Assembly (NCBI GenBank): GCA_945867815.1
Contig: CAMBIX010000001.1
Coordinates: forward strand, 1 to 64,000
Origin: an uncultured Veillonellaceae bacterium
Lineage (GTDB): Bacteria > Bacillota > Negativicutes > Veillonellales > Veillonellaceae
Length of the DNA: 64,000 nucleotides
Reading direction: 5' to 3'
Of the stretch, positions 21,209 through 64,000 are shown piece by piece; position 1 is the stretch's first letter, and each line of letters begins with the position of its first letter. The position numbers and the translations under genes are program-made. The notes below the pieces were generated by a model. That model was not told the origin of the DNA, made no database searches, and saw only the letters and a list, made by a program, of their open reading frames with translations.

Positions 21209-21214
21209 ATTTGT

Positions 21215-21440
21215 GCGGGTCTGTGGTTGAAAGTCGAGGCCAGTCGCAGGCAAAACGATCCACATAAGCAATGAAGAATTGTGAGCATGGTGCGGCTTAG
21301 ATGTCAGTCCTGCCGGGTTAACCCGAGAGAAGTAGTAGTGGGGAATGTTGCATTTATGAGCGAACCTTCCAGCAGGCGAGTGTGGGGGCAAAGACCAGGT
21401 CAGCCGTGGCGCATCGGATTTTCGATGCGCTTATTTTTTT
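21215..21440 (+). ncRNA. Free-standing structured RNA, ~225 nt, possibly 6S-type
   Basis: More G+C-rich than its surroundings, no convincing reading frame, bounded by a sigma-A promoter and a strong intrinsic terminator. The downstream gene has its own promoter, so this is not simply its leader. Nested colinear pairings form one long interrupted hairpin: 21225-21230 with 21400-21405, 21233-21235 with 21393-21395, 21239-21241 with 21387-21389, 21244-21247 with 21376-21379, 21263-21267 with 21354-21358, and 21268-21271 with 21348-21351. A palindrome CGGGTTAACCCG lies at 21314-21325. A long rod with internal bulges and a central open region is the architecture of 6S RNA; family membership is inference. 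tmRNA, RNase P, SRP and T-box signatures are absent. Confidence 0.7.
21409..21440 (+). terminator. Intrinsic terminator of the structured RNA
   Basis: 8-bp stem GCGCATCG/CGATGCGC (21409-21416 with 21423-21430), 6-base loop, then TTATTTTTTT. Confidence 0.92.
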
Positions 21441-47010: not shown

Positions 47011-47039
47011 TTGACAGATAGATAAAAGCTGTGTATGAT
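47011..47039 (+). promoter_or_regulatory. Promoter of the tryptophan T-box transcript
   Basis: TTGACA (47011-47016), 17-bp spacer, TATGAT (47034-47039): near-consensus and intact. Confidence 0.8.
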
Positions 47040-47045
47040 ATAAAC

Positions 47046-47418
47046 AATTTATCAGTGATACATACAAATGTGTTGTGATGAGAGACAAAAAGAATAGGAA
47101 CTTTATAAACCTATGAGATGGAGATAAGAATAGGAAATGCACGTACAGAGAGTGAGCGACGCTGAGAGTCTCATCGTAAACAGCCTATTAAATGGACCAT
47201 TGGGGGTGTGGGGAAAGGCTTGGCCGAGTATTCTACAACGCAACATCTGCGTTATTGATGAGGGATTTGTTGGAATCCTGCGAGAGAGAATAACGAGTAA
47301 TCGGTATTTCAAACAAGGTGGCACCACGTATAGAGTAGGAGTAGTGTGTAGTTTACATTCTATTTATGAACATATGACGTCCTTGGTAAAGAGTAAGTTC
47401 TTTACTGAGGGCGTTTTT
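47046..47418 (+). promoter_or_regulatory. T-box riboswitch, tryptophan-specific
   Basis: Stem I begins near AGATGGAGATAAG and contains AGAGAGTGAGCGACGCTGAGAG. The specifier-loop codon is TGG (47193-47195), followed by ACC. The T-box sequence AAGGTGGCACCACG is at 47315-47328; its TGGC bulge would pair with the GCCA end of an uncharged tRNA, matching the G73 discriminator of bacterial tRNA-Trp. A terminator follows: 12-bp stem 47381-47392 with 47399-47410, then GCGTTTTT. Uncharged tRNA-Trp would allow read-through. What lies downstream are only trp gene fragments. Confidence 0.93.
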
Positions 47419-47524
47419 GTCGTTAGAAAGATATGTATTGCCTGTTAGGAGATAGGAGAAATAGTAGGTATGAAATCGATAAAAAGACTAGGGATCTAGA
47501 GCTGTGAGATTATAGAATGTACCC

Positions 47525-47694
47525 TTAGAAGGAGTAAAAGCATTAGCTCAGGCTAAGTATGTAGAAGAGAGAAAGAGTCCATCTTATCGTGCCTTTCCGT
47601 TTGAAGAGGCCAAGCTTATACGTCAGAGTATGCCCGTTTACATGGGGGCGGTGGGTGTCTTTGTGAATGAAGAGCTCAGTCAACTTATAAAAAT
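47525..47694 (+). pseudogene. trpF: trpF fragment (phosphoribosylanthranilate isomerase)
   Basis: The frame starting LEGVKALAQAKYVEE reads KSPSYRAF (family KSPRY-) and AKLIRQSMPVYMGAVGVFVNEE, the N-terminal third of TrpF with its GVFVN strand. The upstream start (MK-CGL motif) is disrupted by a stop and the frame runs into trpA sequence at about 47695. Cannot encode an enzyme. Confidence 0.8.
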
Positions 47695-47695
47695 A

Positions 47696-47907
47696 CAGGT
47701 CGGTATATACAAGTCATAGCTGAGGCTGGTGCTGATTTGATTGAAATAGGGATTCCTTTTTCTGATCCTGTTGCTGAGGGTGGTGTCATACAAGAGGCAT
47801 CTATGCAGGCTTTAGCTAAAGGGGTAACAACAGATAAAATTTTTAATATGGTAGAATCTATCAGAGATAAGGTGAATATACCACGGCAATATCTGTCCAT
47901 CTTTTGA
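47696..47907 (+). pseudogene. trpA: trpA fragment (tryptophan synthase alpha)
   Basis: RYIQVIAEAGADLIEIGIPFSDPVAEGG and VIQEASMQALAKGVTT then IFNMVESIRDKVNIP are diagnostic of TrpA residues ~25-95, including the catalytic Glu in IEIG. It lacks the start and ends at TGA 47905-47907 after ~70 codons. Joined directly to the trpF piece, so trpB and the rest were deleted. Confidence 0.85.
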
Positions 47908-48184
47908 AGAACCGCATGAACACGGGCTTTGTGGCATATCAGAATAGAAAAATACTACTGTTTTACTACCAACATACAATATGCAGTAGTTAATAAAACT
48001 ATATATACAATATAATGATAAAAAGAGCTATCATATGGTGACGGCTCTTTTTTTATGAATCAGTGAAAGATATAGGCATCATGGTAAAGAATATTGAAGA
48101 GCGCTAGATTAACGTTGATGAGGCAGTGGGATGTTTTGTATAAAATCAACTGCAATCTGGAAATACAACAAAACAAATCAATTG
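47908..48184. other. Non-coding gap between trp remnants and defence island
   Basis: AT-rich, no gene seen. It holds a terminator-like hairpin (48021-48054). Short in-frame words (DIGIMVKNIEER near 48066-48107) could be further trpA debris but are too short to assign. Confidence 0.5.
48021..48054 (+). terminator. Intrinsic terminator after the trp remnants
   Basis: AGAGCTATCA/TGACGGCTCT stem (one mismatch, one wobble) flanked by A and T runs (seven T from 48048). Confidence 0.75.
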
Positions 48185-48214
48185 TATATTTTGGTATTTA
48201 AATACCAAAATATA
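48185..48214. promoter_or_regulatory. 30-bp perfect palindrome, probable operator
   Basis: Each 15-base half reads TATATTTTGGTATTT and its complement, centred between 48199 and 48200. It ends one base before the -35 box of the next promoter. The TTTGGTATT/AATACCAAA core looks like a dimeric repressor or activator site. No regulator gene is adjacent. Confidence 0.75.
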
Positions 48215-48215
48215 G

Positions 48216-48244
48216 TTGACAAAAATATTGAGCCGTGATATTAT
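48216..48244 (+). promoter_or_regulatory. Promoter of the methylase-like island genes
   Basis: TTGACA (48216-48221), 17-bp spacer, TATTAT (48239-48244); start codon 36 bases downstream. Confidence 0.8.
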
Positions 48245-48280
48245 GTTTTCAAGGAAGAAGAAAAGTCAGAGGTGATCGCA

Positions 48281-49885
48281 ATGAGTCAGACGAAAATCAA
48301 TGATAGTACATGGAGGTATATCGATTCATTAAAGGGGTATATGACGCCGGAAGCATATCTATCTGCTGCCTTGCTTACAGATGAGGTAATGCATTCAGCA
48401 AAGGACAAATCGTCATCATCCTTATATACAAGGCTGCTTCAATGTGCTGATAAGGCTGGTGTGGCTAACCCATTTCCAAACGAGGGTGTGTTCTATGATT
48501 TTTACAGGCTTGTGTCGGAGGGTGGAAAGTTTAATTGGGGTCAGCTTTTGAAGTTGACCATGGAATATATAAGGATACCGGTTCTTCCTAAAGCATTGGT
48601 AACACTTATGATGGAAGCATTTAGAAAGAAGCGCGGAACGGTAATGATTACGGAAGCAGAGAAGTTTGCTGCTTATTTATCCGGGATCATTGAAGAACAT
48701 CCTGATTCAAAATTCCTTTTGACAACACAGGATCAAGATTATCAAAAAGTCTTGGAGAAGATGTGTGATGGATATAAGAACGTTAGCGTCACCCTTACTA
48801 ATATCTATCACTATGAGTTTATCAATAAGCGTTTCGATTTAATCCTTTCAAATCCCATATTTGGTGGAAGAGATCTTGTTGATGACTCTCATTTCATTTG
48901 CCGGGAGACAGACTTTGTCGCCTTAGAAAATCTGTCCCTGCATTTAAATACTGGAGGATTACTTGAAATCGTGCTTCCAGCAAGGATTTCCTTTGCCGCG
49001 GGAAAGGCTGCTGATTTAAGACAGTTCATTCAGTCAAATTACTCTATTCGGGAACTGTCCGAACTTCCGGAAGGGACCTTCAATCGCACGAATATAAAAA
49101 CTTACCTGCTTAAAGTAGAGAATACAAGACCCTCTGAGGATGAAGATATCGATATAAAGAGATATTCGGCCGGCGATCGAAAGAACCGAAGAGAACAGCT
49201 CTCTTCACTGAATGTTGAGGATGATACATTTGTGATGCTCCCAGAACTTGAAGAACAGGGGAACTGGAGTGTTGATCGAATCTTTGCAAAGCAAGATGAG
49301 GATTTTGTAGCCTTTCAGAATTCAGCTACTAGAAAAGAACTATTAAAAAATGTAGCTGAAGTTTTTAGAGGAAAAGCCGTGAGAGGCAAAGACCCGGATG
49401 GCAATGTTGGTGTTGTCAACATCTCAAACATAGAAGCTTTCGATATTGATTATGACGGCCTTGATAAGATTTCACTTGATGATCGTAAAATCGCAACCTA
49501 TATTCTTGAAGACGGAGACATCCTTCTTCCAGCTAGAGGTACGGCAATACGAACAGCGGTTTTTCACAAACAGCCATATACATGTATTGCTTCTTCAAAT
49601 CTGATTGTGATCAGGCCCAATAGTGAGCTATTAGACAGTACTTATCTGAAAATTTTCATTGATAGTCCAATCGGAAAAAAACTGGTGACCGGAACACAGC
49701 AAGGATTATCAACGATGAATATCAGTTACAAAGATCTGGGAGATATTGAAATCCCGCTGCCGCCGCTCGAAAAGCAACAGCGCATAGCAAAAACATATTT
49801 AGAAGAATTAAAAAATTATCAAGAAACCGTTCGGAATGCCGAAAGACGGTGGGAATCGGTGTTGAAAAAAGTTCAGCAATTTTGA
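48281..49885 (+). CDS. Methylase-specificity fusion protein related to type I R-M
   Basis: 535 residues. N-terminal helical region (1-130); a methyltransferase-like region with motif IV DLILSNPIFGG (~186-196) and LNTGGLLEIVLPARISF; then a single type I S-subunit-like target-recognition domain (~350-500, with NVAEVFRGKAV, ILEDGDILLPARG, LSTMNISYKDLGDIEIPLPPLEKQQRIA) and a closing helix. The SAM-binding motif I (FxGxG) expected ahead of NPIF is not visible: that place reads KFLLTTQDQDYQKV. It may therefore be a degenerate or non-catalytic partner, or bind SAM atypically. ATG 48281 follows AGAGGTGAT; the earlier GTG is part of that site. Next gene is 18 bases downstream. Confidence 0.8.
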   Translation: MSQTKINDSTWRYIDSLKGYMTPEAYLSAALLTDEVMHSAKDKSSSSLYTRLLQCADKAGVANPFPNEGVFYDFYRLVSEGGKFNWGQLLKLTMEYIRIPVLPKALVTLMMEAFRKKRGTVMITEAEKFAAYLSGIIEEHPDSKFLLTTQDQDYQKVLEKMCDGYKNVSVTLTNIYHYEFINKRFDLILSNPIFGGRDLVDDSHFICRETDFVALENLSLHLNTGGLLEIVLPARISFAAGKAADLRQFIQSNYSIRELSELPEGTFNRTNIKTYLLKVENTRPSEDEDIDIKRYSAGDRKNRREQLSSLNVEDDTFVMLPELEEQGNWSVDRIFAKQDEDFVAFQNSATRKELLKNVAEVFRGKAVRGKDPDGNVGVVNISNIEAFDIDYDGLDKISLDDRKIATYILEDGDILLPARGTAIRTAVFHKQPYTCIASSNLIVIRPNSELLDSTYLKIFIDSPIGKKLVTGTQQGLSTMNISYKDLGDIEIPLPPLEKQQRIAKTYLEELKNYQETVRNAERRWESVLKKVQQF

Positions 49886-49903
49886 TTATGAGGAGGTTTT
49901 AGT

Positions 49904-51478
49904 GTGCTAGGCGCGATAATTGGAGATACGGTTGGTTCCCGCTTTGAGTGGCACAACCATAGAAGTAAAGAGTTTGATTTCCTTACATATAAATGTGAAC
50001 TGACAGATGACAGTATTATAACTCTTGCTATAGCAAAGGCTGTTTTGAAAAGTGAAGGTGACATAAACAAACTGCCGAATCTGGCGGTGCGCTATATGCA
50101 GCAGCTTGGCCATCTTTACCCGGATGCTGGTTACGGCGGAGCTTTTCGAAAATGGCTCAACTCAAACAATCCAAAGCCATACGGCAGTTTTGGGAACGGA
50201 GCAGCGATGCGTGTTTCTCCGGTAGGATTTGCAGCGGACAGCCTGGATGAAGCAATAGCAATGTCCAAGGCCGTAACCATGGTGACACATAATCATCCGG
50301 AAGGCCTGAAAGGCGCAGAAGCAACGACAGTCGCTATTTTTATGGCGCTGCATGGAAAGAGCATGCTGGAGATTCGTGATTATATCGATAAGAACTACTA
50401 TCCGATGAACTTCACACTTGATGGTATCCGAGACAGTTATCAGTTTAATGAGACTTGCCAGAACACCGTGCCCCAGGCAATGATGGCATTTTTCGAATCT
50501 ACAGGATTTGAGGATGCAATCAGAAACGCCATCTCTATTGGCGGTGACAGTGATACCCTTGCGGCAATTACAGGGGGAATTGCGGAGGCTTATTATGGCA
50601 TACCTTCTGAAATCAGAAAACATGAGCTTACTTTCCTAGACGAAAGTAAGCTCGCTATACTGGTCGAATTCGAGAATAAGTACAAGCCGATCATGGAAAA
50701 GAAGATTGGAAATGATGTGAGTGTTCCTATCGAACGAAGTGCAGACATCAAGGTTGAGAAGGGCTCCAGGGAATCGATGATGGAAAAAGCGGTTCAGGCA
50801 GCCGATAAGGATATAGAAAACGCTGAGGTGTCCGTAGAAGAAACATCCAGTCAGAAACTTTTCAATTTCTTATACGAGGACTGCAATATCCTTCGCGGGC
50901 CGATCAACCAAGATGAGTACAAATCTTATGTAACGCCTATTCTGTTTTTCAAACGCCTGTCTGATGTATATGATGAGGAACATGAGAAGGCATTGAAGGA
51001 ATCTGGAGGCGACGAGGAGTTTGCAAGTTTTGACGAAAATTACAGCTTTGTTATTCCGAAAGGTTGCCATTGGAATGATGTGAGAAATGTCACACAGAAT
51101 GTTGGACAAGCAATCGTAAAAGCGATGAGTGGCATTGAGCGTGCTAATCCGGAGTACCTTTCTGGGGTGTTCTCAAGTTTCGACGACGCGAACTGGACGG
51201 ATAAGAATAAGCTCAGCGACGAAAGACTGAAAAACCTGATCGAGCATATGTCCAAGTTAAAGGTGGGTAATAACAATTACTCCGCTGACGTGATGGGCGA
51301 TGCTTATGAGTACCTGATCAAAAAGTTTGCAGACTTATCAAAGAAGAACGCCGGAGAATTCTATACACCGCGAACAGTTGTGAAGCTCATGGTTATGCTC
51401 TTGGACCCGCAAGCTGGAGATACAGTTTATGAGCAAAGATGCTTGGGATTGATACAATTTAAAGGAAGGTATGCATAG
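49904..51478 (+). CDS. ADP-ribosylglycohydrolase-HsdM fusion, truncated
   Basis: 524 residues. Residues 1-245: ADP-ribosylglycohydrolase (DraG-like) with GAIIGDTVGSRFE (3-15), TDDS (34-37), HNHPEG (129-134) and GGDSDT (213-218), the metal- and substrate-binding motifs, all present. Residues 246-314: charged linker. Residues 315-524: HsdM N-terminal domain (LFNFLYEDCNILRGPI...VTPILFFKRLSDVYDEE) running into the methylase core GEFYTPRTVVKLMVMLLDPQAGDTVYE. It then breaks just where the SAM motif (DPxCGTGG) should follow, ending EQRCLGLIQFKGRYA. The rest of hsdM plus hsdS and hsdR are missing. GTG 49904 follows AGGAGG by 8 bases. Could be a pseudogene for methylation while the hydrolase part remains intact. 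Confidence 0.85.
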   Translation: MLGAIIGDTVGSRFEWHNHRSKEFDFLTYKCELTDDSIITLAIAKAVLKSEGDINKLPNLAVRYMQQLGHLYPDAGYGGAFRKWLNSNNPKPYGSFGNGAAMRVSPVGFAADSLDEAIAMSKAVTMVTHNHPEGLKGAEATTVAIFMALHGKSMLEIRDYIDKNYYPMNFTLDGIRDSYQFNETCQNTVPQAMMAFFESTGFEDAIRNAISIGGDSDTLAAITGGIAEAYYGIPSEIRKHELTFLDESKLAILVEFENKYKPIMEKKIGNDVSVPIERSADIKVEKGSRESMMEKAVQAADKDIENAEVSVEETSSQKLFNFLYEDCNILRGPINQDEYKSYVTPILFFKRLSDVYDEEHEKALKESGGDEEFASFDENYSFVIPKGCHWNDVRNVTQNVGQAIVKAMSGIERANPEYLSGVFSSFDDANWTDKNKLSDERLKNLIEHMSKLKVGNNNYSADVMGDAYEYLIKKFADLSKKNAGEFYTPRTVVKLMVMLLDPQAGDTVYEQRCLGLIQFKGRYA

Positions 51479-51514
51479 CCTAAAATTCCATATTTAGCGA
51501 GGTTTTAATGTATC

Positions 51515-51537
51515 CCGGCAGAAAGCCGGCTTTTTTT
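51515..51537 (+). terminator. Terminator hairpin after the truncated fusion gene
   Basis: CCGGC/GCCGG stem with AGAAA loop followed by a run of seven T. Confidence 0.7.
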
Positions 51538-51597
51538 ATGCCCGAAAATAGAGCTGACGTATGTTGAGGATGAAAACTGGTGGGGAGCAATATGAAT

Positions 51598-51638
51598 ACG
51601 GCAGTAACGATAGCTTTTTATCGTTACTGCCGTTTTTT
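51598..51638 (+). terminator. Strong intrinsic terminator between convergent operons
   Basis: Perfect 15-bp stem (51598-51612 with 51619-51633), 6-base loop, six T. It separates the rightward methylase cassette from the leftward ABC-3C operon. Confidence 0.9.
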
Positions 51639-51658
51639 CATATTACAAAAGGGTAATC

Positions 51659-53491
51659 TTATTCGATATTAAATACATCATTTAAAAAACCGTATCGGCC
51701 TACATATTTATTTCCGGTGAACTCAATTATATGAATCCCATTGGCTGGATTTTCCTTAGGAATAAAAGGCATCCGTTCTTTTTGTTCAATCATGATTACT
51801 TGGCGAGATAACGCATGTTCGACCAGATACTGAATGAAATTATGCTTAATAGTGTTTGCTTTCTGGATTTGTTCAGATTCTGATAATTGGGTTAACGATG
51901 AGTCGGATGCAAAGAAATATGGAGCATAGCCGTTTTGCTCGATAATGTATTCACTCATAGCATAAGTAGTTATTGTGTTAAGAAGTGCACAAAAGCCACC
52001 GCCCATTGTAGCTGGCTTACTCTTACCATTTATTTCAATGTCGAAATTTTGCATGTTTAATCGCGCGGTATTGGCGCCACCAATCTTGGACGCAGTTAGA
52101 ATCTTTATTAGATTTTCTTCGAATCCGTGAATAAGATCATAGTCAAAGAAATCGGCTATTTTTCGTTTAGTGATAACTGGGTCTTCTTCAGTTTCTTTAT
52201 CGAACAATTCCTTCCTATATTGAAGTTCATTTTGCTGTAGACATTCCAGTTCGCCAGAAATTCGCATGAAATTCATTTTTTCTTCCAATTCTTGTTGAAT
52301 ATTGAATAACTGGGGAGTAAGTTCATTCGATATCAATGAATCAATTTTATTTTTTTGTTCCTCTAGCTTGTTTATATTCAGTAGCACCCCCTGTCTCTTT
52401 TTTTCGACGCTTTCTTTAGCTTTGAATAATCCTTCAATATGAGTCTTTATTTTTTTCAGTTCTACAGAAGATGCTTCTATGTATTTAGTATCAGGTGGGG
52501 TGGTGATTTTGGAATTGCAAAACGGACAGTGTGCAACTGTAGGAAATTTCTGAGATGCTAAGCTACCATCTATTATGAATTCTAATCTATGTATATCTGA
52601 TTGATATTGTTGATGGAGAATGGAAAAATTGTGAATTACAGTTTCGCATTCAGAGAGTTTACCATTTAAATCATAAATCTTAGACATGATGGAATGTCCT
52701 TTGGATACGGCTGTATCAATGTGATTTTTAATTTGTTGAATTTGTTTTTTCAATTCTTTTATGGCATTAGGAATATCTACAATTTCACATTGAGATGCGG
52801 CTTTTTCTAATTCAGCCCGTCGCTTACTTAAATCATCTAATTTCTCTTGTATGTATGTGAGAAGAGCTTTTTTCTTTGCCTTGCTTATAGCCGGATCTTC
52901 TTGCTTTTGCAAATTATTAGCGTCTTTACCAGTTAATAAAAATAAAAGGGTAGCTATTGACGGTGTCGGTGCGTTCCATCCGGGCGTGATAAGTGGAGAG
53001 GTTTCTCTGGCAATATCAGCCTGGCGAAGAAAGAAAAAATGTAATATGGTTCGCCAGGATAAATTTTGGGTGGTTCCTTTCTCTGAAGATAGGATTTTAT
53101 GCTCAGAATCAATCCCCAAAAGAGATAGAAATACAGAATTAATATTTTTTTTAGCTGTATTGGAAACACTATAACGTCCGTTTTTAATAGATGGATCTGA
53201 ACTGATTACTTCTATTTTACTATCACCAATTTTTCTATTAAGTGTTACGGACCCTCCTTGAGTTGTAAGTTCCAGTGATATTAATTCATATCCATTATTG
53301 GCATCAAGAACTTTAGATGGATGCGTTTTGCTTGGTGATGCTCCAAGAGCATAGTCCAAACAATCCATTATAAAGCTTTTCCCGGTATTGGATGGGCCAA
53401 TGATAAGGTTGAATCCTGGATTAAATTCAATTATGGAACTTTGGTGTTGTCCACCAGAAACTATCAATTTATTCAAATAAAATCTATTCAT
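51659..53491 (-). CDS. ABC-3C system SMC/Rad50-like ATPase (DUF3732)
   Basis: 610 residues. Walker A GPSNTGKS (32-39) after FNPGFNLII, long coiled-coil arms (~200-440), and a CPFC motif near 322-325 at the arm tip resembling a Rad50 zinc hook. The C-terminal lobe has an ABC signature-like MGGGFCALLNTITTYAMSEYI and FFASDSSLTQL at the Walker B/D-loop position, without the usual Glu after Asp. Matches the ATPase of ABC-three-component conflict systems, thought to act as DNA- or complex-sensing motor. ATG 53491 is preferred because AGGAGG lies 6 bases upstream; the ATG at 53497 is too close. Last gene of a three-gene operon, overlapping the middle gene by 8 bases. Confidence 0.88.
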   Translation of the reverse strand: MNRFYLNKLIVSGGQHQSSIIEFNPGFNLIIGPSNTGKSFIMDCLDYALGASPSKTHPSKVLDANNGYELISLELTTQGGSVTLNRKIGDSKIEVISSDPSIKNGRYSVSNTAKKNINSVFLSLLGIDSEHKILSSEKGTTQNLSWRTILHFFFLRQADIARETSPLITPGWNAPTPSIATLLFLLTGKDANNLQKQEDPAISKAKKKALLTYIQEKLDDLSKRRAELEKAASQCEIVDIPNAIKELKKQIQQIKNHIDTAVSKGHSIMSKIYDLNGKLSECETVIHNFSILHQQYQSDIHRLEFIIDGSLASQKFPTVAHCPFCNSKITTPPDTKYIEASSVELKKIKTHIEGLFKAKESVEKKRQGVLLNINKLEEQKNKIDSLISNELTPQLFNIQQELEEKMNFMRISGELECLQQNELQYRKELFDKETEEDPVITKRKIADFFDYDLIHGFEENLIKILTASKIGGANTARLNMQNFDIEINGKSKPATMGGGFCALLNTITTYAMSEYIIEQNGYAPYFFASDSSLTQLSESEQIQKANTIKHNFIQYLVEHALSRQVIMIEQKERMPFIPKENPANGIHIIEFTGNKYVGRYGFLNDVFNIE

Positions 53492-53945
53492 GAGCATCCT
53501 CCTGCAAAGACTGGAGTGTATATCGATTGATTTCTTTTAACATATATGACTCTGACAACCTATAGGCATCTACTACAGTTTCAACAGCTAATCGATATTC
53601 TTCAGCATATGAAACTTTAAGTTCGTTAACAAAATCAAGACCCTTAGGAGTTATTTGGAATAAATAACCTTTTTTGGATGTCTTAAACCTTATGCATCTT
53701 TTAAGAACTAGGTTTTTCACGGCTTTCGATACAATTGACTTTCGTGCTAAAAATTCGCTGAATCTGTAAGTTCCGTACCCATGCAGATTTTCGTCCAGCA
53801 ATCCAAAATCTGCTGCGTATACGGCAATGAAATCAACTTCACATATTTGCATAATCGTTATTGAACGATTTTTAACTTTGCTTAATAAGAGCAGGACACG
53901 CAATGCCATTTCAAAGGCAGAGCTAATAGCCTTAGTATTATCCAT
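53484..53945 (-). CDS. ABC-3C system middle component
   Basis: 153 residues. Small, basic, mostly helical with a winged-helix look: FEMALRVLLLLSKVKNRSITIMQICEVDFIAVYAADFG, then RFSEFLARKSIVSKAVKNLVLKRCIRFKTSKKGYLFQITPKGLDFV. This layout corresponds to the middle component (MC2-like) of ABC-3C systems, which connects the ATPase with the effector protein. Overlaps the upstream gene by 8 bases and the ATPase gene by 8. Confidence 0.8.
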   Translation of the reverse strand: MDNTKAISSAFEMALRVLLLLSKVKNRSITIMQICEVDFIAVYAADFGLLDENLHGYGTYRFSEFLARKSIVSKAVKNLVLKRCIRFKTSKKGYLFQITPKGLDFVNELKVSYAEEYRLAVETVVDAYRLSESYMLKEINRYTLQSLQEDAHE

Positions 53946-54879
53946 GTTTTTTCTTGACCCACCTTAATTTATGATCATTGACAAGATAATGACATACTCC
54001 CTTTTTTATTTTCCCGCTAATCCAATAAGGGGATGAGCTTAATAGATAATTTGGGGCAGATATTTTTACGGCTTGTTCCATTACCGACAGCATTCGTTCG
54101 TATCCATTGGGGTGGGATTTTCTGGCTGTATCTTTTACCCCATCAAAAATTTCTTCTTTGAGTACGTCAAACTGATTGGAAAGTCTATTGCTACCTAATT
54201 CCAAGACGCCCCTTTGAATAGAAGCGGCAGAATAATAGTCAACTCGACGATCATCGAGGTCATCGGCATAATCAGGATAATCACCTAAATCGTTTTTTGA
54301 AAATGATGGGAGACCTTCTGCATCACCATAGGCTCTATATAATTCATCAATATATATTTTTTCGTTTTCAGTTGCTTCTTTCGGAACCGGGATAGAACTC
54401 GGACGAGGAAGCAATTTTATTTTTTTCTCAATATCCTCAATTAAAGATATGTCGTGAGTAAAACCGGAGGAATCATTAGAAAACTCACTATTTGTTGCTG
54501 AGTTGTCTATAAGCGACAAAATAATATTTTCAAGTAAATCAGCACAAGCGTCGTCGACACAAGAATTGCCTATTCCATTATCGTGCAGCCATTTTGCTAC
54601 CGCATCATAAGAATCACATTCTTCGGTTCTATCAGCAATCCAATGAGAAAACTTTTCCTTGTCACGATTAGCGTAAAGGTATTTCGCATCTGCAGGTTGG
54701 ATTTTACGAGTACCTCTTAAAAATCGATATTTTGTATCGGCTTTCTTATGAAGGATAGGACATGAGTCCATAGCAGCATCTTGGATGAAATTCCCGATGA
54801 TTTCATTAAAATATTGTTCTTTCTTCATTTGTCCGATGCAAAAAGGAAGTAAGCCAGAAGTAAACTCTGAAAATTTCAA
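53938..54879 (-). CDS. ABC-3C system effector/C-terminal-domain protein
   Basis: 313 residues, acidic. N-terminal ~130 residues: FCIGQMKKEQYFNEIIGNFIQDAAMDSCPILHKKADTKYRFLRGTRKI... (no nuclease, protease or NTPase motif recognised). The C-terminal ~130 residues (GVLELGSNRLSNQFDVLKEEIFDGVKDTARKSHPNGYERMLSVMEQAVKIS...HKLRWVKKKHG) resemble the conserved CTD of ABC-3C proteins, where the N-terminal part is the variable effector. First gene of the operon: TTG 54879 with AAAGGTGGTG upstream. Effector activity is not assignable by eye. Confidence 0.75.
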   Translation of the reverse strand: MKFSEFTSGLLPFCIGQMKKEQYFNEIIGNFIQDAAMDSCPILHKKADTKYRFLRGTRKIQPADAKYLYANRDKEKFSHWIADRTEECDSYDAVAKWLHDNGIGNSCVDDACADLLENIILSLIDNSATNSEFSNDSSGFTHDISLIEDIEKKIKLLPRPSSIPVPKEATENEKIYIDELYRAYGDAEGLPSFSKNDLGDYPDYADDLDDRRVDYYSAASIQRGVLELGSNRLSNQFDVLKEEIFDGVKDTARKSHPNGYERMLSVMEQAVKISAPNYLLSSSPYWISGKIKKGVCHYLVNDHKLRWVKKKHG

Positions 54880-54900
54880 GTGCTACACCACCTTTAAAGT

Positions 54901-54941
54901 AGTCCAGTCCGAAATTGTCCGAGGCTGTCCGTCCAGTCCGA
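54901..54941. repeat. Clustered GTCCG repeats upstream of the ABC-3C operon
   Basis: Four to five GTCCG/GTCCA words spaced about 10 bases apart (one helical turn); TCCAGTCCGA occurs twice (54903-54912, 54932-54941). The cluster lies directly upstream of the ribosome site of the first ABC-3C gene, where operators or a promoter are expected. No clear sigma-A promoter is seen. Confidence 0.6.
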
Positions 54942-55260
54942 TTTTTAATGAGCGTGAATTGCTAGAATTAAGGCAGAACCAATGAGCAAGCATCTGGACA
55001 ACCAAGGAAACACCATGAATTACTTATATTTTATCATACCTTGGGGAATTAGATGAGCTTATAAAGACATTTGAATGAAATTTCCGTCTCAACGTTCACA
55101 TCCGGACGCGGATGTGCCCAGAACTGGGAGACGGTCTGGAAAGTTAATCACGTCAGCCTACTGGGATGGTTGGCCATAGAAGCGAGGATGCATCTTATGG
55201 TCAATTTCGACAGGCTGCCTGCGTGGATTCTCGCTTCGCATTATGCGAAGGAGATCGCGC
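54942..55260. other. Boundary between the defence island and the phage-like module
   Basis: No supportable gene. AT-rich up to about 55070, after which base composition becomes G+C-rich and stays so to the right edge. Open frames here (for example reading RLPAWILASHYAKEIAHGQ) overlap the start of the sigma-like gene and are probably remnants or shadows. No integrase, direct-repeat att site or tRNA end was found. Confidence 0.55.
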
Positions 55261-55761
55261 ATGGCCAATCTACAGACAAACAAAGACAAAAAGTACTACA
55301 TTCCTCTGGAACTCACTTCAGAAAACGTCATCACCGAGGAGTACAAGGACTGTGAAGTCCGCTGGTCAAAAATCGGCTGCCGTAAGGTACGTACTGTCCT
55401 GATTCCGGCAACTGAAGAACAGTATCGCGCTTACATGCGGCCAATCTGGCGTGAAGACAAAAGAAAACAGCGACATGGAGATGATGAAGTATCCGCTGAC
55501 AAGCTCCATGATGAATTCAAGCTGGAACCGGAATGTGACTTCAACTTGGAGGAGATTGTCCTGAAAAAAGAGTTGCTGACAGCTCTCCGGCGAGAACTAG
55601 TTGCACTGCAAGACATTGACCGGACCATCCTGACGATGATTGCCGATGGCTTCAGCGAAGCGGCGGTCGGGGAGTCAGTCGGGCTGAGTCAGAAAGCCGT
55701 CAACAAGCGGAAACATAAGCTTTACGCGTTACTGCAGGACCGTCTCAAGGATTATCGCTAA
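55261..55761 (+). CDS. Phage sigma-70-region-4-like regulator
   Basis: 166 residues. The N-terminal half (KKYYIPLELTSENVITEEYKDCEVRWSKIGCRKVRTVLIPATEEQYRAYMRPIWRE) is a prophage-type domain without sigma region 2. The C-terminal ~60 residues form a sigma region-4 helix-turn-helix (LQDIDRTILTMIADGFSEAAVGESVGLSQKAVNKRKHKLYALL). Such proteins head the early operon in Firmicute prophages and probably control element transcription. ATG 55261 follows GAAGGAGATC. G+C-rich codons, unlike the left part of the window. Confidence 0.8.
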   Translation: MANLQTNKDKKYYIPLELTSENVITEEYKDCEVRWSKIGCRKVRTVLIPATEEQYRAYMRPIWREDKRKQRHGDDEVSADKLHDEFKLEPECDFNLEEIVLKKELLTALRRELVALQDIDRTILTMIADGFSEAAVGESVGLSQKAVNKRKHKLYALLQDRLKDYR

Positions 55762-55771
55762 ACAGCCAGGG

Positions 55772-55805
55772 AATCCGGCTGCGAACAAAGCGGCCGGATT
55801 TTTTT
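55772..55805 (+). terminator. Terminator after the sigma-like gene
   Basis: AATCCGGC.GC/GC.GCCGGATT stem with a 6-7-base loop followed by seven T. Confidence 0.88.
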
Positions 55806-55813
55806 GGAAAATC

Positions 55814-55840
55814 GGTACTTAACGATGATGCGGTTGTCCT
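55814..55840 (+). promoter_or_regulatory. Two-box promoter-like motif, copy 1
   Basis: GGTACTTAAC, 11 bases, TGTCCT. The same boxes with the same spacing recur at 60310-60336. GGTACTT-N15-GTCCT resembles ECF-sigma promoters (GGAACTT, ~16 bases, GTC). It lies ahead of the operon beginning at 55892. Confidence 0.55.
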
Positions 55841-55891
55841 ATTACTGGTGGAGGGCGAACGAAGAAGCCCTTTAGGAAGGAGGAACCCAAG

Positions 55892-56062
55892 ATGATGTAC
55901 ACACAGACACCTGAAAAACTGGCTCAGCAGCAAAAGCTGGACCGGGAACTGGCGGCGGTGCTGATGACCATCAGCGCCACGACCCGCAGTATCGCTAGGA
56001 ACATCCATCTCTTATCAATGCAAAGATGTGCGAAAGGAGTCAATCCGTATGACAAACGATGA
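55892..56062 (+). CDS. Small phage protein, 56 aa
   Basis: ATG 55892 with AAGGAGG 8 bases upstream; MMYTQTPEKLAQQQKLDREL then a helical, basic C-terminus ending NPYDKR. Overlaps the next gene by 14 bases. Family not recognised; a start at the second Met (55895) is possible. Confidence 0.65.
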   Translation: MMYTQTPEKLAQQQKLDRELAAVLMTISATTRSIARNIHLLSMQRCAKGVNPYDKR

Positions 56063-56360
56063 ACTGCAGAAACTGGCAGCGGCCCTGGGCGATTGCGGCA
56101 AGGCACTGCTGAAGATTTCCGAGGCCATGGCGGTGAAAGAAGATAATCCGACAGCTTCGGAAGCGAAATCAGAGAAATTGGAAAAGCCGCTGACACTGGA
56201 AGATGTCCGCAAAGTCGCTGCCGACAAGGCCCGCAAGGGATTCACGGACGAAGTTCGCAGCCTTATCCAGAAGTACGGGGCGGACAAGCTGTCCGGCATT
56301 GATGCGGCACAGTATGAAGCGTTCCTGAAGGAACTGGAGGTGATTGGCCATGCCGGATAA
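56049..56360 (+). CDS. Conserved phage hypothetical protein, 103 aa
   Basis: ATG 56049 preceded by AAAGGAG. Helical N-terminus (NDELQKLAAALGDCGKALLKISEAMA), Glu/Lys linker, and a C-terminal segment LEDVRKVAADKARKGFTDEVRSLIQKYGADKLSGID...YEAFLKELEVIG that resembles rRNA-biogenesis-style or Rho-like helical motifs of prophage operons (weak). Always seen (from memory) directly ahead of DUF2800 genes. Stop overlaps the next start by 11 bases. Confidence 0.75.
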   Translation: MTNDELQKLAAALGDCGKALLKISEAMAVKEDNPTASEAKSEKLEKPLTLEDVRKVAADKARKGFTDEVRSLIQKYGADKLSGIDAAQYEAFLKELEVIGHAG

Positions 56361-57477
56361 ACATGCGGTGCTGTCCGCATCTTCTTGCTACCGCTGGCTG
56401 GCCTGCCCGCCGTCTGCGAAGGAATGTGCCAAGCTGCCGGATACCTCCAGTGAATTCGCCCGCCAGGGAACGGATGCCCATACGCTCTGCGAATTCAAGG
56501 TGAAGACGGCGCTGGGGCAGAAACTGGAAGATCCGACGAAGGGACTCACGTACTTTGATGAGGAGATGGCGGAATGCACTGATGAATACGCGCAGTTCGT
56601 CATGGAATGCCTGGCCACAGCCAAAGCATCCTGCAAGGACCCGATGATCATGATCGAACAGCGGCTGGACTTTTCCCAGTGGGTGCCAGGCGGTTTTGGA
56701 ACAGGCGACTGCCTCATCGTAGCCGACGATACCCTGACAGTCATCGATTACAAGCATGGCTTGGGAGTCCTGGTGGATTCCGAGAAGAATCCGCAGATGA
56801 TGTGCTATGCCCTCGGTGCGCTGAACCTGTTTGATGGCATCTATGATATCCGCCAGGTGTCCATGACGATCTTCCAGCCCCGCCGGGACAACGTCAGCAC
56901 CTGCACCATGAGCAAGGAAGAACTGCTCCAGTGGGCCGAAACGGTGCTGAAGCCTGCGGCAGAACTGGCGGCGAAAGGTGAGGGCGAATATAAAGCCGGT
57001 GACCACTGCCGCTTCTGCAAGATCAAGGCAACCTGCCGCAAGCGGGCCGAGTACAATCTGGAACTGGCCCGGTATGATTTTGCCGTCCCGTCCACGCTGC
57101 AGGATGAAGAAATCGAAGCCGTCCTGGAGAGGGCCGATGAACTGGTGAACTGGGCCGGGGATGTCAAGGAATACGCATTGCAGCAAGCCCTTTCCGGCAA
57201 GCAGTGGGACGGATGGAAACTGGTCGAAGGCCGGTCGAACCGCCGCTACGTAAGTGAAGAAGCAGTCGCCGCCAAAGTGGAAGAAGCGGGCTTCGACCCA
57301 TATGAAAAGAAGCTGCTCGGCATCACGGCAATGACAAAACAGCTCGGCAAGAAGCGGTTCGAAGAACTGCTGTCAAATTTAGTCGAAAAGCCGCAGGGAA
57401 AACCGGTCCTGGTACCGGAATCGGACAAGCGTCCGGCGATGCATACGGCGGCTGATGATTTTAACGCTGCAAATTAA
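56350..57477 (+). CDS. DUF2800 PD-(D/E)XK nuclease-like protein
   Basis: 375 residues. SASSCYRWLACPPSAK at the N-terminus, a Cas4/RecB-type core with MIEQRLDF then DDTLTVIDYKHGLG (D-x-K) and NPQMMCYALGAL, and a Cys cluster CRFCKIKATCRKRAEY that may hold Fe-S. Phage DUF2800 proteins accompany DUF2815 and a family A polymerase, so a role in element DNA recombination or replication is inferred. ATG 56350 with GGAGGTGATT upstream. Confidence 0.88.
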   Translation: MPDKHAVLSASSCYRWLACPPSAKECAKLPDTSSEFARQGTDAHTLCEFKVKTALGQKLEDPTKGLTYFDEEMAECTDEYAQFVMECLATAKASCKDPMIMIEQRLDFSQWVPGGFGTGDCLIVADDTLTVIDYKHGLGVLVDSEKNPQMMCYALGALNLFDGIYDIRQVSMTIFQPRRDNVSTCTMSKEELLQWAETVLKPAAELAAKGEGEYKAGDHCRFCKIKATCRKRAEYNLELARYDFAVPSTLQDEEIEAVLERADELVNWAGDVKEYALQQALSGKQWDGWKLVEGRSNRRYVSEEAVAAKVEEAGFDPYEKKLLGITAMTKQLGKKRFEELLSNLVEKPQGKPVLVPESDKRPAMHTAADDFNAAN

Positions 57478-57490
57478 GGAGGAAACTACT

Positions 57491-58057
57491 ATGTCTAACA
57501 ACTACGTCAATCCGTGCAAGGTAATCACCGGAGTCAATACGCGCTGGTCTTACGCCAACGTCTGGGAACCGAAGTCCATCAACGGCGGTACGCCGAAATA
57601 CAGCGTCAGCCTGATCATCCCTAAGTCGGATACAAAGACCGTAGAAAAAATCCGCGCTGCCATCAAGGCTGCTTACGAAGAAGGCGAAAGCAAGCTCAAG
57701 GGCAATGGCCGCACTGTACCGGCTCTCGAAGCCATCAAAACGCCGCTCCGTGACGGCGACCTGGAACGCCCGGGCGATGATGCCTATAAAGACAGCTTCT
57801 TCGTCAATGCCAACTCGGCGACCAAGCCGGGCATCGTTGATGCTGACTGCCAGCATATCCTGGAACGCTCTGAAGTCTACTCCGGCGTCTATGGCCGTGC
57901 ATCCATCAACTTCTATGCCTTCAACAGCAATGGCAACAAGGGCATCGCCTGCGGCCTGAACAACCTGCAGAAAATCCGTGATGGTGAACCCCTTGGCGGC
58001 AAGCCGCGTGCAGAAGATGACTTCGCTACGGCTGACGATGATGATTTCCTGGCATAA
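57491..58057 (+). CDS. DUF2815 single-strand DNA-binding-like protein
   Basis: 188 residues. VNPCKVITGVNTRWSYANVWEPKSINGGTPKYSVSLIIPKSD and SGVYGRASINFYAFNSNGNKGIACGLNNLQKIRDG followed by an acidic tail (ATADDDDFLA) typical of ssDNA-binding proteins. ATG 57491 follows AAGGAGGAAACTACT. Located between the nuclease and the polymerase. Confidence 0.9.
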   Translation: MSNNYVNPCKVITGVNTRWSYANVWEPKSINGGTPKYSVSLIIPKSDTKTVEKIRAAIKAAYEEGESKLKGNGRTVPALEAIKTPLRDGDLERPGDDAYKDSFFVNANSATKPGIVDADCQHILERSEVYSGVYGRASINFYAFNSNGNKGIACGLNNLQKIRDGEPLGGKPRAEDDFATADDDDFLA

Positions 58058-58069
58058 GGAGGCGTGATT

Positions 58070-58258
58070 ATGGAAACTATGATGAGACTGATTCTGGATG
58101 GCCTGTACTGCCTGGTTGCACTGTGCGCCGGAGGATTCTTCGTGGCTATGATCTATACGGATATCAAAAAAGACCAGCGGGATGAAGAAATGGCTCGGCA
58201 CCGGGATGAACGGGAAGAAGAGTACCACCGCAAGCAGATGGAATCCTTCCGGAAATAA
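58070..58258 (+). CDS. Small phage membrane protein, 62 aa
   Basis: ATG 58070 with AAGGAGG 7 bases upstream. One membrane helix (LILDGLYCLVALCAGGFFVAMI) followed by a highly charged tail of Asp/Glu/Arg/Lys. Family not recognised. Confidence 0.65.
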   Translation: METMMRLILDGLYCLVALCAGGFFVAMIYTDIKKDQRDEEMARHRDEREEEYHRKQMESFRK

Positions 58259-58270
58259 GTAGTAGTGAAT

Positions 58271-58300
58271 AGCGGCGGGGCCTTGTGCCTCGCCGCTTTT
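58271..58300 (+). terminator. Terminator-like hairpin ahead of the phage polymerase gene
   Basis: Stem GCGGCGGGGC/GCCTCGCCGC with a CTTGT loop and TTTTT; lies 15 bases before the polymerase start codon, so it could reduce polymerase expression. Confidence 0.7.
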
Positions 58301-58314
58301 TCGAGGTGAAGCGT

Positions 58315-60303
58315 ATGAAAACCATCAGTATCGATATTGAAACATTCAGCGATATCAATCTGGCAAAATGCGGTGTGTACAAATATGCCGAATCGCCAGC
58401 CTTTGAAATCCTTCTCTTTGGATATTCGGTGGACGGCGGCGAAGTGCAGGTCGTTGACCTGGCGCAGGGAGAGTGCATCCCGGACGATATCCTGGATGCC
58501 CTGACCGATGAATCCGTTACCAAGTGGGCGTTCAATGCCAGCTTTGAACGGGTCTGCCTGTCGCGCTACCTGTGTGACCTGGGGATGAGCCTGGACCCGT
58601 TCCGTGACCATCATCCGCTTTCCCGGGACTGTGCCAGGTTCCTCAATCCGGCGGGATGGAAATGCTCCATGATCTGGTCGGCCTATATGGGCCTGCCTCT
58701 TTCTCTGGAAGGCGCAGGGGCCGTACTGAAGCTGGACAGCCAGAAGATGAAGGAAGGCAAAGACCTGATTCGCTATTTCTGTGTTCCCTGCAAGGAAACC
58801 AAGTCGAATGGTGGCAGGACGAGGAACCTTCCTCGGCATGCACCAGATAAATGGACACTGTTCAAGTCCTACAACAAACGGGATGTGGAAGTGGAAATGG
58901 CCATCCAGGAGCGGCTGAAGAAGTATCCCGTCCCGGAACCGATATGGGATGAATATCATCTCGACCAGGAAATCAATGACCGGGGCATCGCCATCGACAG
59001 GACGCTGGCTAAAAATGCCATCGTCATCGATGCCCGCAGCCGGGACAGCCTGATGGCTGTGCTGAAGGAAAAGACGGGTCTGGAGAACCCGAACTCCGTC
59101 ATACAGATGATCGGCTGGCTGGAACAGCATGGGATGAAGACCGATTCCTTGGGCAAAAAGCAGGTAGAAAAGCTGCTGAAGACGGCAGAAGAACCGCTGC
59201 GCAGTGTGTTGCTGCTCCGGCAGAAGCTGGCCAAATCCTCGGTCCGGAAATACCAGGCCATGGGGATGACGGCCTGCGAGGATGGCCGGGCCAGAGGGAT
59301 GTTCCAGTTCTATGGGGCCAACCGGACCGGGCGGTTTGCCGGCCGGCACATCCAGCTGCAGAATCTTCCCCAGAATCATCTGCCGGATCTTTCGGAAGCC
59401 CGGGAACTGGTACGCCAGGGAAATTACGAAGCCATGGAACTCCTGTATGATTCCATCCCCGATGTCCTTTCCCAGCTGATCCGTACGGCCTTTGTGCCCC
59501 GGCAGGGACTGAAGTTTGCCGTAGCGGATTTTTCGGCCATTGAAGCCAGGGTGCTTTCGTGGCTGGCAGGAGAAACATGGCGTTCGGATGTCTTTGCCAG
59601 GAATGGCGACATTTACTGCGCCTCGGCTAGCTCCATGTTCGGCGTTCCCGTAGAAAAGCATGGCGTCAACGGGCATCTCCGGCAGAAAGGGAAAATCGCA
59701 GAACTGGCCCTTGGCTATGGCGGCTCCGTAGGAGCGCTGAAGGCCATGGGCGCCCTGGACATGGGACTTACGGAAAATGAGCTGTATCCTCTGGTGCGGT
59801 CCTGGCGGTCAGCCAATCCGCACATCGTCGATTTCTGGTGGCAGGTGGACGCCGCCGTGAAGACAGCCATCAAGGAACGTATCCCCATGCGGACTGGCTG
59901 CATCCGCTTTCTGTATCAGAGCGGCATGCTGTTCATACAGCTCCCCAGCGGACGGCGGCTTTCCTACATAAAGCCCCGGATAGGCGAGAACCGCTTCGGT
60001 GGGGAATCCGTCACCTATGAAGGCATCGGCGCAACGAAGAAGTGGGAACGGCTCGAAAGCTATGGCCCGAAGTTCGTGGAGAACATCGTCCAGGGCATCA
60101 GCCGGGACATCCTCTGCTATGCCATGCAGACGCTGCGATGCTGCGCCATCGTCGGCCATGTCCATGATGAACTGATTATCGAGTGTTCCAAAGACACTAG
60201 CGTCGATGCCATCTGTGAGCAGATGGGCCGGACGCCGTCGTGGGCTGAAGGGCTATTACTCCGGGCAGACGGGTATGAGTGCGAATTTTATAAAAAAGAT
60301 TGA
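58315..60303 (+). CDS. Phage-type family A DNA polymerase
   Basis: 662 residues. An N-terminal 3'-5' exonuclease with active-site pair in SIDIETFSD and later WAFNASFERVC and YNKRDVEVE; the polymerase core has motif A VADFSAIEARVLSWLAGE, motif B RQKGKIAELALGYGGSVGA, and motif C VGHVHDELIIEC. No 5'-3' exonuclease domain. Unlike the chromosomal polA at 3436, proofreading residues are present. Replicates the element. ATG 58315 follows GAGGTGAAG; the frame from 58285 lies in the hairpin. Confidence 0.93.
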   Translation: MKTISIDIETFSDINLAKCGVYKYAESPAFEILLFGYSVDGGEVQVVDLAQGECIPDDILDALTDESVTKWAFNASFERVCLSRYLCDLGMSLDPFRDHHPLSRDCARFLNPAGWKCSMIWSAYMGLPLSLEGAGAVLKLDSQKMKEGKDLIRYFCVPCKETKSNGGRTRNLPRHAPDKWTLFKSYNKRDVEVEMAIQERLKKYPVPEPIWDEYHLDQEINDRGIAIDRTLAKNAIVIDARSRDSLMAVLKEKTGLENPNSVIQMIGWLEQHGMKTDSLGKKQVEKLLKTAEEPLRSVLLLRQKLAKSSVRKYQAMGMTACEDGRARGMFQFYGANRTGRFAGRHIQLQNLPQNHLPDLSEARELVRQGNYEAMELLYDSIPDVLSQLIRTAFVPRQGLKFAVADFSAIEARVLSWLAGETWRSDVFARNGDIYCASASSMFGVPVEKHGVNGHLRQKGKIAELALGYGGSVGALKAMGALDMGLTENELYPLVRSWRSANPHIVDFWWQVDAAVKTAIKERIPMRTGCIRFLYQSGMLFIQLPSGRRLSYIKPRIGENRFGGESVTYEGIGATKKWERLESYGPKFVENIVQGISRDILCYAMQTLRCCAIVGHVHDELIIECSKDTSVDAICEQMGRTPSWAEGLLLRADGYECEFYKKD

Positions 60304-60309
60304 TTTCCC

Positions 60310-60336
60310 GGTACTTAACATAGTGATTCCTGTCCT
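60310..60336 (+). promoter_or_regulatory. Two-box promoter-like motif, copy 2
   Basis: GGTACTTAAC, 11 bases, TGTCCT, same as at 55814-55840, 57 bases ahead of the Rha-like gene. Confidence 0.55.
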
Positions 60337-60392
60337 TTCACTATCAGAGGGAATTTCCTCGGATATTTATTTTAAGAAAGGCGGGATTCGCT

Positions 60393-61055
60393 ATGAAGTT
60401 TTTGATTCCAGAAGATGAATTTGGCGTGTTTGCTGATCAGAGAGGTGTACCAAGGGTCGACAGCCTGTTTGTTGCAGCGACTTTTGAAAAACAGCATTAT
60501 AACGTTCTGCGTGATATCGGACGAATCACTGCATCCAATTCTGGATTAAGCCCGGAATTCATTGCACTCAATTTTGAGGGCAATACATATCGTGATGCCA
60601 GGGGAAGAAAACTGCCACGTTACCTGCTGACCCGCGATGGGTTCACCATGCTGGTCATGGGCTACACAGGCTCGAAGGCGATGCACTTCAAGGAACTCTA
60701 TATCCAGCGTTTCAACGAGATGGAGCAGTGCATCCGGTCGCTCCTGTCTGCCCGGCAGGAATTCCCGATGCTGACGGACATGATCTGCCGGCTGCATGAA
60801 AGCCCGAAGGCATATCACTTCAGCAATGAAGCCGACATGCTGAACCGCATCGTCCTGGGGATGTCTGCCAAGCAGTTCCGGCTGGCCAACGGCATCGAAA
60901 AAGGGCAGAGCATCCGGCCTTATCTGACTGCACAGCAGATCCATGCTCTGGACCGGCTGCAGCACCTGGATTACGGCCTGCTGTATTCCTGCCCGGATTT
61001 CCAGCAGCGCAAGCAGATGCTCATGACCTATTACAAGACGGAACTGGAGGGATGA
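60393..61055 (+). CDS. Rha-family phage regulatory protein
   Basis: 220 residues. N-terminal pRha domain (VPRVDSLFVAATFEKQHYNVLRDIGRI...FIALNFEGNTYRDARGRKLPRYLLTRDGFTMLVMGYTGSKAMHFKELYIQRFNEME) and a C-terminal helical domain (NEADMLNRIVLGMSAKQFRLANGIEKGQSIRPYLTAQQIHALDRLQHLD). Rha proteins interfere with or control phage growth depending on host factors; also antirepressor-like. ATG 60393 follows AAAGGCGGGA. Confidence 0.88.
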   Translation: MKFLIPEDEFGVFADQRGVPRVDSLFVAATFEKQHYNVLRDIGRITASNSGLSPEFIALNFEGNTYRDARGRKLPRYLLTRDGFTMLVMGYTGSKAMHFKELYIQRFNEMEQCIRSLLSARQEFPMLTDMICRLHESPKAYHFSNEADMLNRIVLGMSAKQFRLANGIEKGQSIRPYLTAQQIHALDRLQHLDYGLLYSCPDFQQRKQMLMTYYKTELEG

Positions 61056-61058
61056 AAC

Positions 61059-61280
61059 ATGTTTTACGTAAAAGAACCACTTAAGGATGGTGTCGATGTG
61101 ACGGTCGAAATCAATGACGAAAACGTTTTCTGCCGTTGCCCGGTCTGTGGCAGGGAAGTACCTGTCAATCTGAAGGATGTCCTGTCAGACAGTGACGCTG
61201 ACCTGGTGGGAACGGCAGTATTGTGCGATGAATGTGCGGAGGGGTGGATGGAACTGCATGGAAAACAATCCGAAACGTAA
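61059..61280 (+). CDS. Small zinc-ribbon protein, 73 aa
   Basis: Two Cys pairs: CRCPVCG (~27-33) and CDEC (~57-60), typical of a zinc ribbon. MFYVKEPLKDGVDVTVEINDEN precedes. ATG 61059 with GGAGGGATG upstream. Overlaps the next gene by 23 bases. Confidence 0.75.
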   Translation: MFYVKEPLKDGVDVTVEINDENVFCRCPVCGREVPVNLKDVLSDSDADLVGTAVLCDECAEGWMELHGKQSET

Positions 61281-61656
61281 TGCAGAGTACTATCCGGACC
61301 CGACAGCGTATCAGGCAATCAGGAACGTGGAACCACAAAGGTTCCCGTTCATGCCTGTTGTGTACGTGTGTTCGCCCTATGCCGGGGATGTGGAAGAAAA
61401 TATCCGGAAAGCCTGTGCCTACTGCCGCTATACGGTAGACCAGGGATATATCCCTCTGGCACCGCATCTGTATCTACCGCAGTTCCTCGACGAAGAATCG
61501 GAACGGGAACTGGCACTCTTTATGGATATCGCACTATTGTCCCGCTGCGTCGAACTCTGGGTCTTTGGCGATGTGATTTCGGCGGGAATGGAAAAAGAAA
61601 TCCAGTACGCCCAAAGAAAAGGAAAAACAATTCGGTATATTAACGAGGTGAAATAA
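61258..61656 (+). CDS. DUF4406 / nucleoside 2-deoxyribosyltransferase-like protein
   Basis: 132 residues. PVVYVCSPYAGDVEENIRKACAYCRYTVDQGYIPLAPHLYLPQFLDEESERELALFMDIALLSRCVELWVFGDVISAGMEKEIQYAQRKGK is the DUF4406 pattern with the SPY and catalytic-type Glu of the deoxyribosyltransferase fold. Possibly nucleotide salvage or signalling in the element. Start ATG 61258 inferred; ATG 61228 is an alternative. Confidence 0.85.
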   Translation: MENNPKRNAEYYPDPTAYQAIRNVEPQRFPFMPVVYVCSPYAGDVEENIRKACAYCRYTVDQGYIPLAPHLYLPQFLDEESERELALFMDIALLSRCVELWVFGDVISAGMEKEIQYAQRKGKTIRYINEVK

Positions 61657-61657
61657 G

Positions 61658-63901: not shown

Positions 63902-64000
63902 GAAAAAGGGAAGGGTGCAGGTCGGTGCAGGTCAATATATAAACCCCCTTTAGGGCTGAAAAATAGAAAAAATGTCTTTAAGGGAAGTTTATGAAACGAC
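63902..64000 (+). other. Right-edge gap with tandem repeat and possible next start
   Basis: GGTGCAGGTC occurs twice in tandem (63914-63933). AAGGGAAG precedes ATG 63991 (MKR...), the probable start of the next gene, cut by the window edge. Confidence 0.5.

Follow-up and report, generated by a model that had tools for sequence, protein, structure and literature searches.

Trp-specific T-boxes are familiar as regulators placed before trp genes (for related surveys, see PMC2494555 and PMC3766115). A Trp-related T-box apart from its usual gene and adjoining mobile DNA has been described in Bacillus thuringiensis YBT-1518, in which a transposase gene neighbors a T-box whose counterpart in relatives controls a tryptophan transporter; riboswitches beside pseudogenes have been viewed as fortuitous by-products of pseudogene origin (PMC9943018). 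The locus analyzed here is likewise a Trp-specific T-box beside mobile DNA, but whereas the YBT-1518 element is antisense to the transposase gene (PMC9943018), this one is on the same strand as the remnants of a trp operon and the genomic island that follows them. It lies in a window of 64,000 nucleotides (the whole stretch of DNA analyzed, which opens a longer contig) from an uncultured bacterium that is most likely a member of the Veillonellaceae, its Obg protein being closest, at 80 to 82%, to that of genus g3 of the same family and the nearest named relatives in a TrkH protein scan being Veillonella species. We found no report on this locus in the literature. Our reading, to which we assign a probability of about 0.88, is that it is an ordinary tRNA-Trp-sensing transcription-antitermination T-box which used to control trpE-G-D-CF-B-A in an ancestral member of the Veillonellaceae, was recently orphaned, and is now decaying passively, presumably without a function.

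The leader matched the T-box family RF00230 with 60.3 bits (E value, 2.3e-12; cmscan), and a scan of the whole genome placed the match at 47105-47384. This score is below the Rfam gathering score of 93 bits, which is a curation cut-off and not a structural feature, and the same holds for five of the eight other T-boxes of the genome, which stand before the expected genes. With a Trp-leader model, whose training set included the leader itself, the score was 97 bits; the folding z-score was -3.4, and the alignment matched the trpE leaders of relatives column for column. An earlier note, made from the letters alone, had described a complete tryptophan T-box with a near-consensus promoter, a TGG specifier, a TGGC bulge fitting the end of tRNA-Trp, and a terminator. 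All four elements were recovered (Table 1). The specifier UGG is complementary to the anticodon, CCA, of the tRNA-Trp that this genome encodes, and the T-box sequence, AAGGTGGCACCACG, carries the bulge UGGC (47319-47322), a full complement of the GCCA end of the same tRNA. Stem I with its specifier loop is present, with one C.A mismatch. The terminator and the antiterminator are both able to fold and are mutually exclusive, having the segment 47378-47385 in common. The locus thus has the architecture, UGG specifier, UGGC bulge, antiterminator/terminator pair, and place before trp genes of the RF00230 Trp-specific leaders of trpE operons, from which it differs in that no intact regulated gene follows and three or four near-invariant positions are changed. 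The canonical parts are therefore readable, but the word complete was slightly too strong. A 103-amino-acid open reading frame (ORF) at 47137-47448 spans the leader helices and was taken as a chance occurrence. The sole Rfam family above its cut-off in the window was the raiA structured RNA (RF03072; 180.5 bits) at 21210-21413.

Table 1. Coordinates of the features of the leader, the trp remnants, and the start of the island
Feature	Position	Strand	Basis or remark
Putative sigma-70-type promoter of the leader, TTGACA-17-TATGAT	47011-47039	+	consensus scan, 11/12; activity presumed
T-box leader core, stem I to antiterminator	47104-47365	+	cmscan, RF00230
Specifier codon UGG (Trp), in block TTAAATGGACC	47193-47195	+	alignments; invariant in 16 leaders
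A>G in the stem I K-turn, on its conserved 3' side (alignment column 92)	47203	+	A in 15/15 other leaders
Antiterminator, AAGG/CCUU and ACG/CGU helices flanking bulge UGGC	47315-47385	+	segment fold, -15.7 kcal/mol
Intrinsic terminator of the T-box, 17 pairs	47376-47415	+	scan; fold, -23.3 kcal/mol
Remnant of trpF (fused to trpC in relatives), in a different frame from the trpA remnant	about 47549-47701	+	weak, 12.4 bits, HMM of relatives' TrpCF
trpA 5' remnant, about 24-94 of the TrpA profile, cut at VNIP	about 47683-47889	+	PF00290, 71.7 bits; HMM, 91.9 bits
Left part of the ~77.8-kb island in trpA	47890-64000		continues beyond the window to contig ~125657
Second intrinsic-terminator-like hairpin with U run, just inside the island	48020-48052	+	fold, -14.3 kcal/mol; z, -3.3
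Separate putative promoter ahead of the first island ORF (48272-49885), TTGACA-17-TATTAT with TG extension	48216-48244	+	consensus scan, 11/12

In relatives, the same leader stands directly before an intact trpE-G-D-CF-B-A operon, which the earlier note had proposed to look for. Here it is followed by the remnants of trpF and trpA that the note had described as all that was left; both were confirmed (the trpA piece by a tblastn match of 66% over 68 amino acids), but the remainder of trpA exists as well, about 77.8 kb away and past the island, at contig positions 125658-126167 outside the window. This 3' piece has two in-frame TAG stops and is free of frameshifts within a 174-residue alignment. 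The last residues of the 5' piece are VNIP and the first of the 3' piece are LPLVIM, intact TrpA having IPLV at this place, and the halves meet at the same codon boundary (...NIP/LPLVIM...) on either side of the island. Since the end of the one and the start of the other are continuous in intact TrpA, about 77.8 kb is inserted in the gene; as judged from these alignments, trpA is split by the island and not merely truncated, which is new. The close alignment of the pieces, with two stops and no frameshift, and the intact operon of relatives agree with the note's proposal of a very recent loss. The assembly is a draft in 17 contigs, and misjoined island junctions could make an operon that is really intact appear broken; we consider this the least probable of all the explanations, since the whole assembly lacks trpE to trpB and the 3' trpA piece has stops of its own, which a misjoin leaves unexplained.

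The inserted DNA appears to be a composite island with a Tn916-type tyrosine integrase (PF02920 and PF00589) at its right end (contig 123460-124752, near the junction), and is presumed to be mobile. A 13-bp direct repeat, GTTTTACTACCAA, is found near both ends of the island, at 47960 and 125489. The island contains restriction-modification and ABC-3C genes, a terminase and other phage-like genes, two serine recombinases, a beta-lactamase-family gene, and an IS3-like transposase. Much of it is prophage-like in appearance; a comparison of its left end with phages gave no match. The left genes are partial restriction-modification pieces. One ORF in this part (49904-51478) combines an ADP-ribosylglycohydrolase domain with a truncated HsdM N terminus and the start of a methylase, as in a fusion or a rearrangement scar. 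A three-gene ABC-3C-type set on the minus strand (51659-54879), made up of an AAA ATPase, Middle Component 2, and C-terminal domain 6, is a candidate defense system, and the cargo outside the window, at contig 100.7 to 104.2 kb (L034:705-4219), includes the beta-lactamase-family protein, an RlmA-like methyltransferase, and an MFS transporter.

We then asked whether the pathway is encoded elsewhere. No intact trpA was found in the genome, which is 99.7% complete, and a joint query of the genome with trpB, trpC-F, and trpD found no gene, its single weak match covering a 68-residue stretch of TrpB (34%; 24 bits) and being consistent with another PLP enzyme. Queries with trpE and trpG returned only matches of 29 to 32%, typical of paralogues such as PabB and amidotransferases. 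The nine T-box matches of the genome included no further Trp T-box; the remaining eight lie before leuA, metA, thrS, cysK, ileS, serC/serA, glyQS, and an Lrp/aminotransferase pair (genes named by looking at their protein sequences). A complete trp operon at another site with a T-box of its own, which the earlier note had named as the finding that would overturn its view, was thus searched for in this genome and not found, and the organism is predicted to be a tryptophan auxotroph.

The distribution of the leaders was determined in 60 order-level genomes, one of them only being from this genus, and a leader was called strong at 65 bits or more with model R1. A strong Trp leader was present in all 47 genomes with an intact trpA and in 2 of the 13 without (Fisher P = 2e-10, a value that ignores relatedness), which indicates that the leaders are usually gone where the operon is gone. 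The two exceptions are the genome studied here and G002, of the sister genus g3 in the same family; the other 11 had nothing above 41 bits. G002 resembles our locus in having a readable leader before broken trp genes, namely a trpE interrupted by three stops, a deletion junction between trpE and trpD, and part of trpC (no trpA was found in it), and differs in its set of deletions and in having a very large downstream ORF in place of this island. That ORF, into which the broken operon runs (L046:3773-12001), is of at least 2,348 amino acids and reaches the end of the stretch read; together with our island it points to large insertions at the trp locus in two lineages. Since G002 is broken while its congeners G005 and G019 have an intact trpA, the orphan-leader state arose at least twice in the family, and it looks transient. 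Second Trp leaders were seen in other genomes, too. In G022, a very similar second T-box, situated 4.7 kb upstream of the genuine trp leader, precedes a 689-amino-acid ORF that is not trpE and has a weak hemagglutinin-repeat match (L044:2611-4987), and it looks like a duplicated leader; in one other family, second strong Trp-type leaders of 75 to 81 bits lie away from trpA (G037:C2:597760, G050:C125:31610, G052:C84:641, and G054:C44:3392).

The state of the leader was measured at 86 alignment columns identical in 14 other leaders (in G026 an indel displaced four columns, for which its count was adjusted). Our leader differs at 7 of the 86, compared with about 1.4% in the pooled intact relatives of the family, and the TrpA remnant differs at 7 of 84 codons invariant elsewhere, compared with about 1.3% in intact relatives; each excess is about 6-fold (P of about 0.001, ignoring relatedness). 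The working gene obg, changed at 5 of 225 positions in this genome, is inside the range of the relatives, so that the excess is not simply a matter of a fast-evolving lineage. Had the leader changed at the same rate per nucleotide as the trpA remnant, about 3.2 changes would be expected in it; 7 were observed, or 4 without those that keep pairing; the leader is thus no better preserved than the dead trpA. Three of the changes look damaging (the stem I C.A mismatch at columns 29/69, the K-turn A>G at column 92, and a distal-loop U>A at column 48), and a fourth, at column 17, is beside the specifier loop. The remaining three keep or restore pairing, by a U-A swap at columns 258/265 and by a change of G.U to A-U in the antiterminator. 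Since pairing persists in most of the leader helices and is preserved by three of the seven changes, weak selection on the leader is conceivable. A bolder version, in which the orphan RNA binds tRNA-Trp and is used in trans, with the pairing-preserving changes reflecting selection after the loss of the operon, seems to us very improbable. We think equally little of the leader as a stand-alone small RNA with, for example, a role in titrating or reporting uncharged tRNA-Trp: an active promoter would be expected to give a terminated RNA of about 370 nucleotides able to bind tRNA-Trp, but the leader is missing in 11 of the 13 genomes without an intact trpA, this one has changes in a stem I pair, in the distal loop, and at the K-turn A, and no opposite-strand ORF is listed nearby as a target (from 45.4 to 50.1 kb, the minus strand has none of at least 80 amino acids).

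The promoter, leader, and terminator are readable and face the island, and the leader might have been taken over as a tryptophan-starvation switch of the island genes by read-through. We rejected this possibility, to which we give only a slight chance, because transcripts coming from the leader would meet the hairpin and U run just inside the island and stop there, short of the first island gene, and because that gene has a near-consensus promoter of its own (Table 1). The left island genes being partial pieces and the leader having decayed as trpA has also speak against it. The hairpin itself was absent from the output of a simple terminator scan; as a member of the small RNA family AbsR25 or STnc430 it scored far below the gathering scores, the similarity appearing to be driven by the terminator. 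The suggestion in the earlier note that the leader has another use thus found no favor with the excess of changes like that of dead trpA, the disappearance of leaders in 11 of 13 genomes, and the isolation of the island genes by a terminator and a promoter.

Returning to a recently orphaned leader in passive decay, we propose that internal deletions took out trpE to trpB in a recent loss, leaving the small trpF and trpA pieces, and that the island carrying the Tn916-type integrase came to sit in trpA. The leader probably still yields a terminated RNA, given a promoter that is presumed active, and may respond in part to uncharged tRNA-Trp, yet it would have no gene under its control. It would still be there because little time has passed, and its erosion has begun. 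The locus would then offer a clean snapshot of the death of a biosynthetic operon, with genes lost by deletion and by insertion of a mobile element, and with a riboswitch that stays readable for a while after the loss of the operon and then erodes at a rate similar to that of the genes. It also calls for caution, since a T-box match alone is insufficient to infer tryptophan biosynthesis or its regulation.
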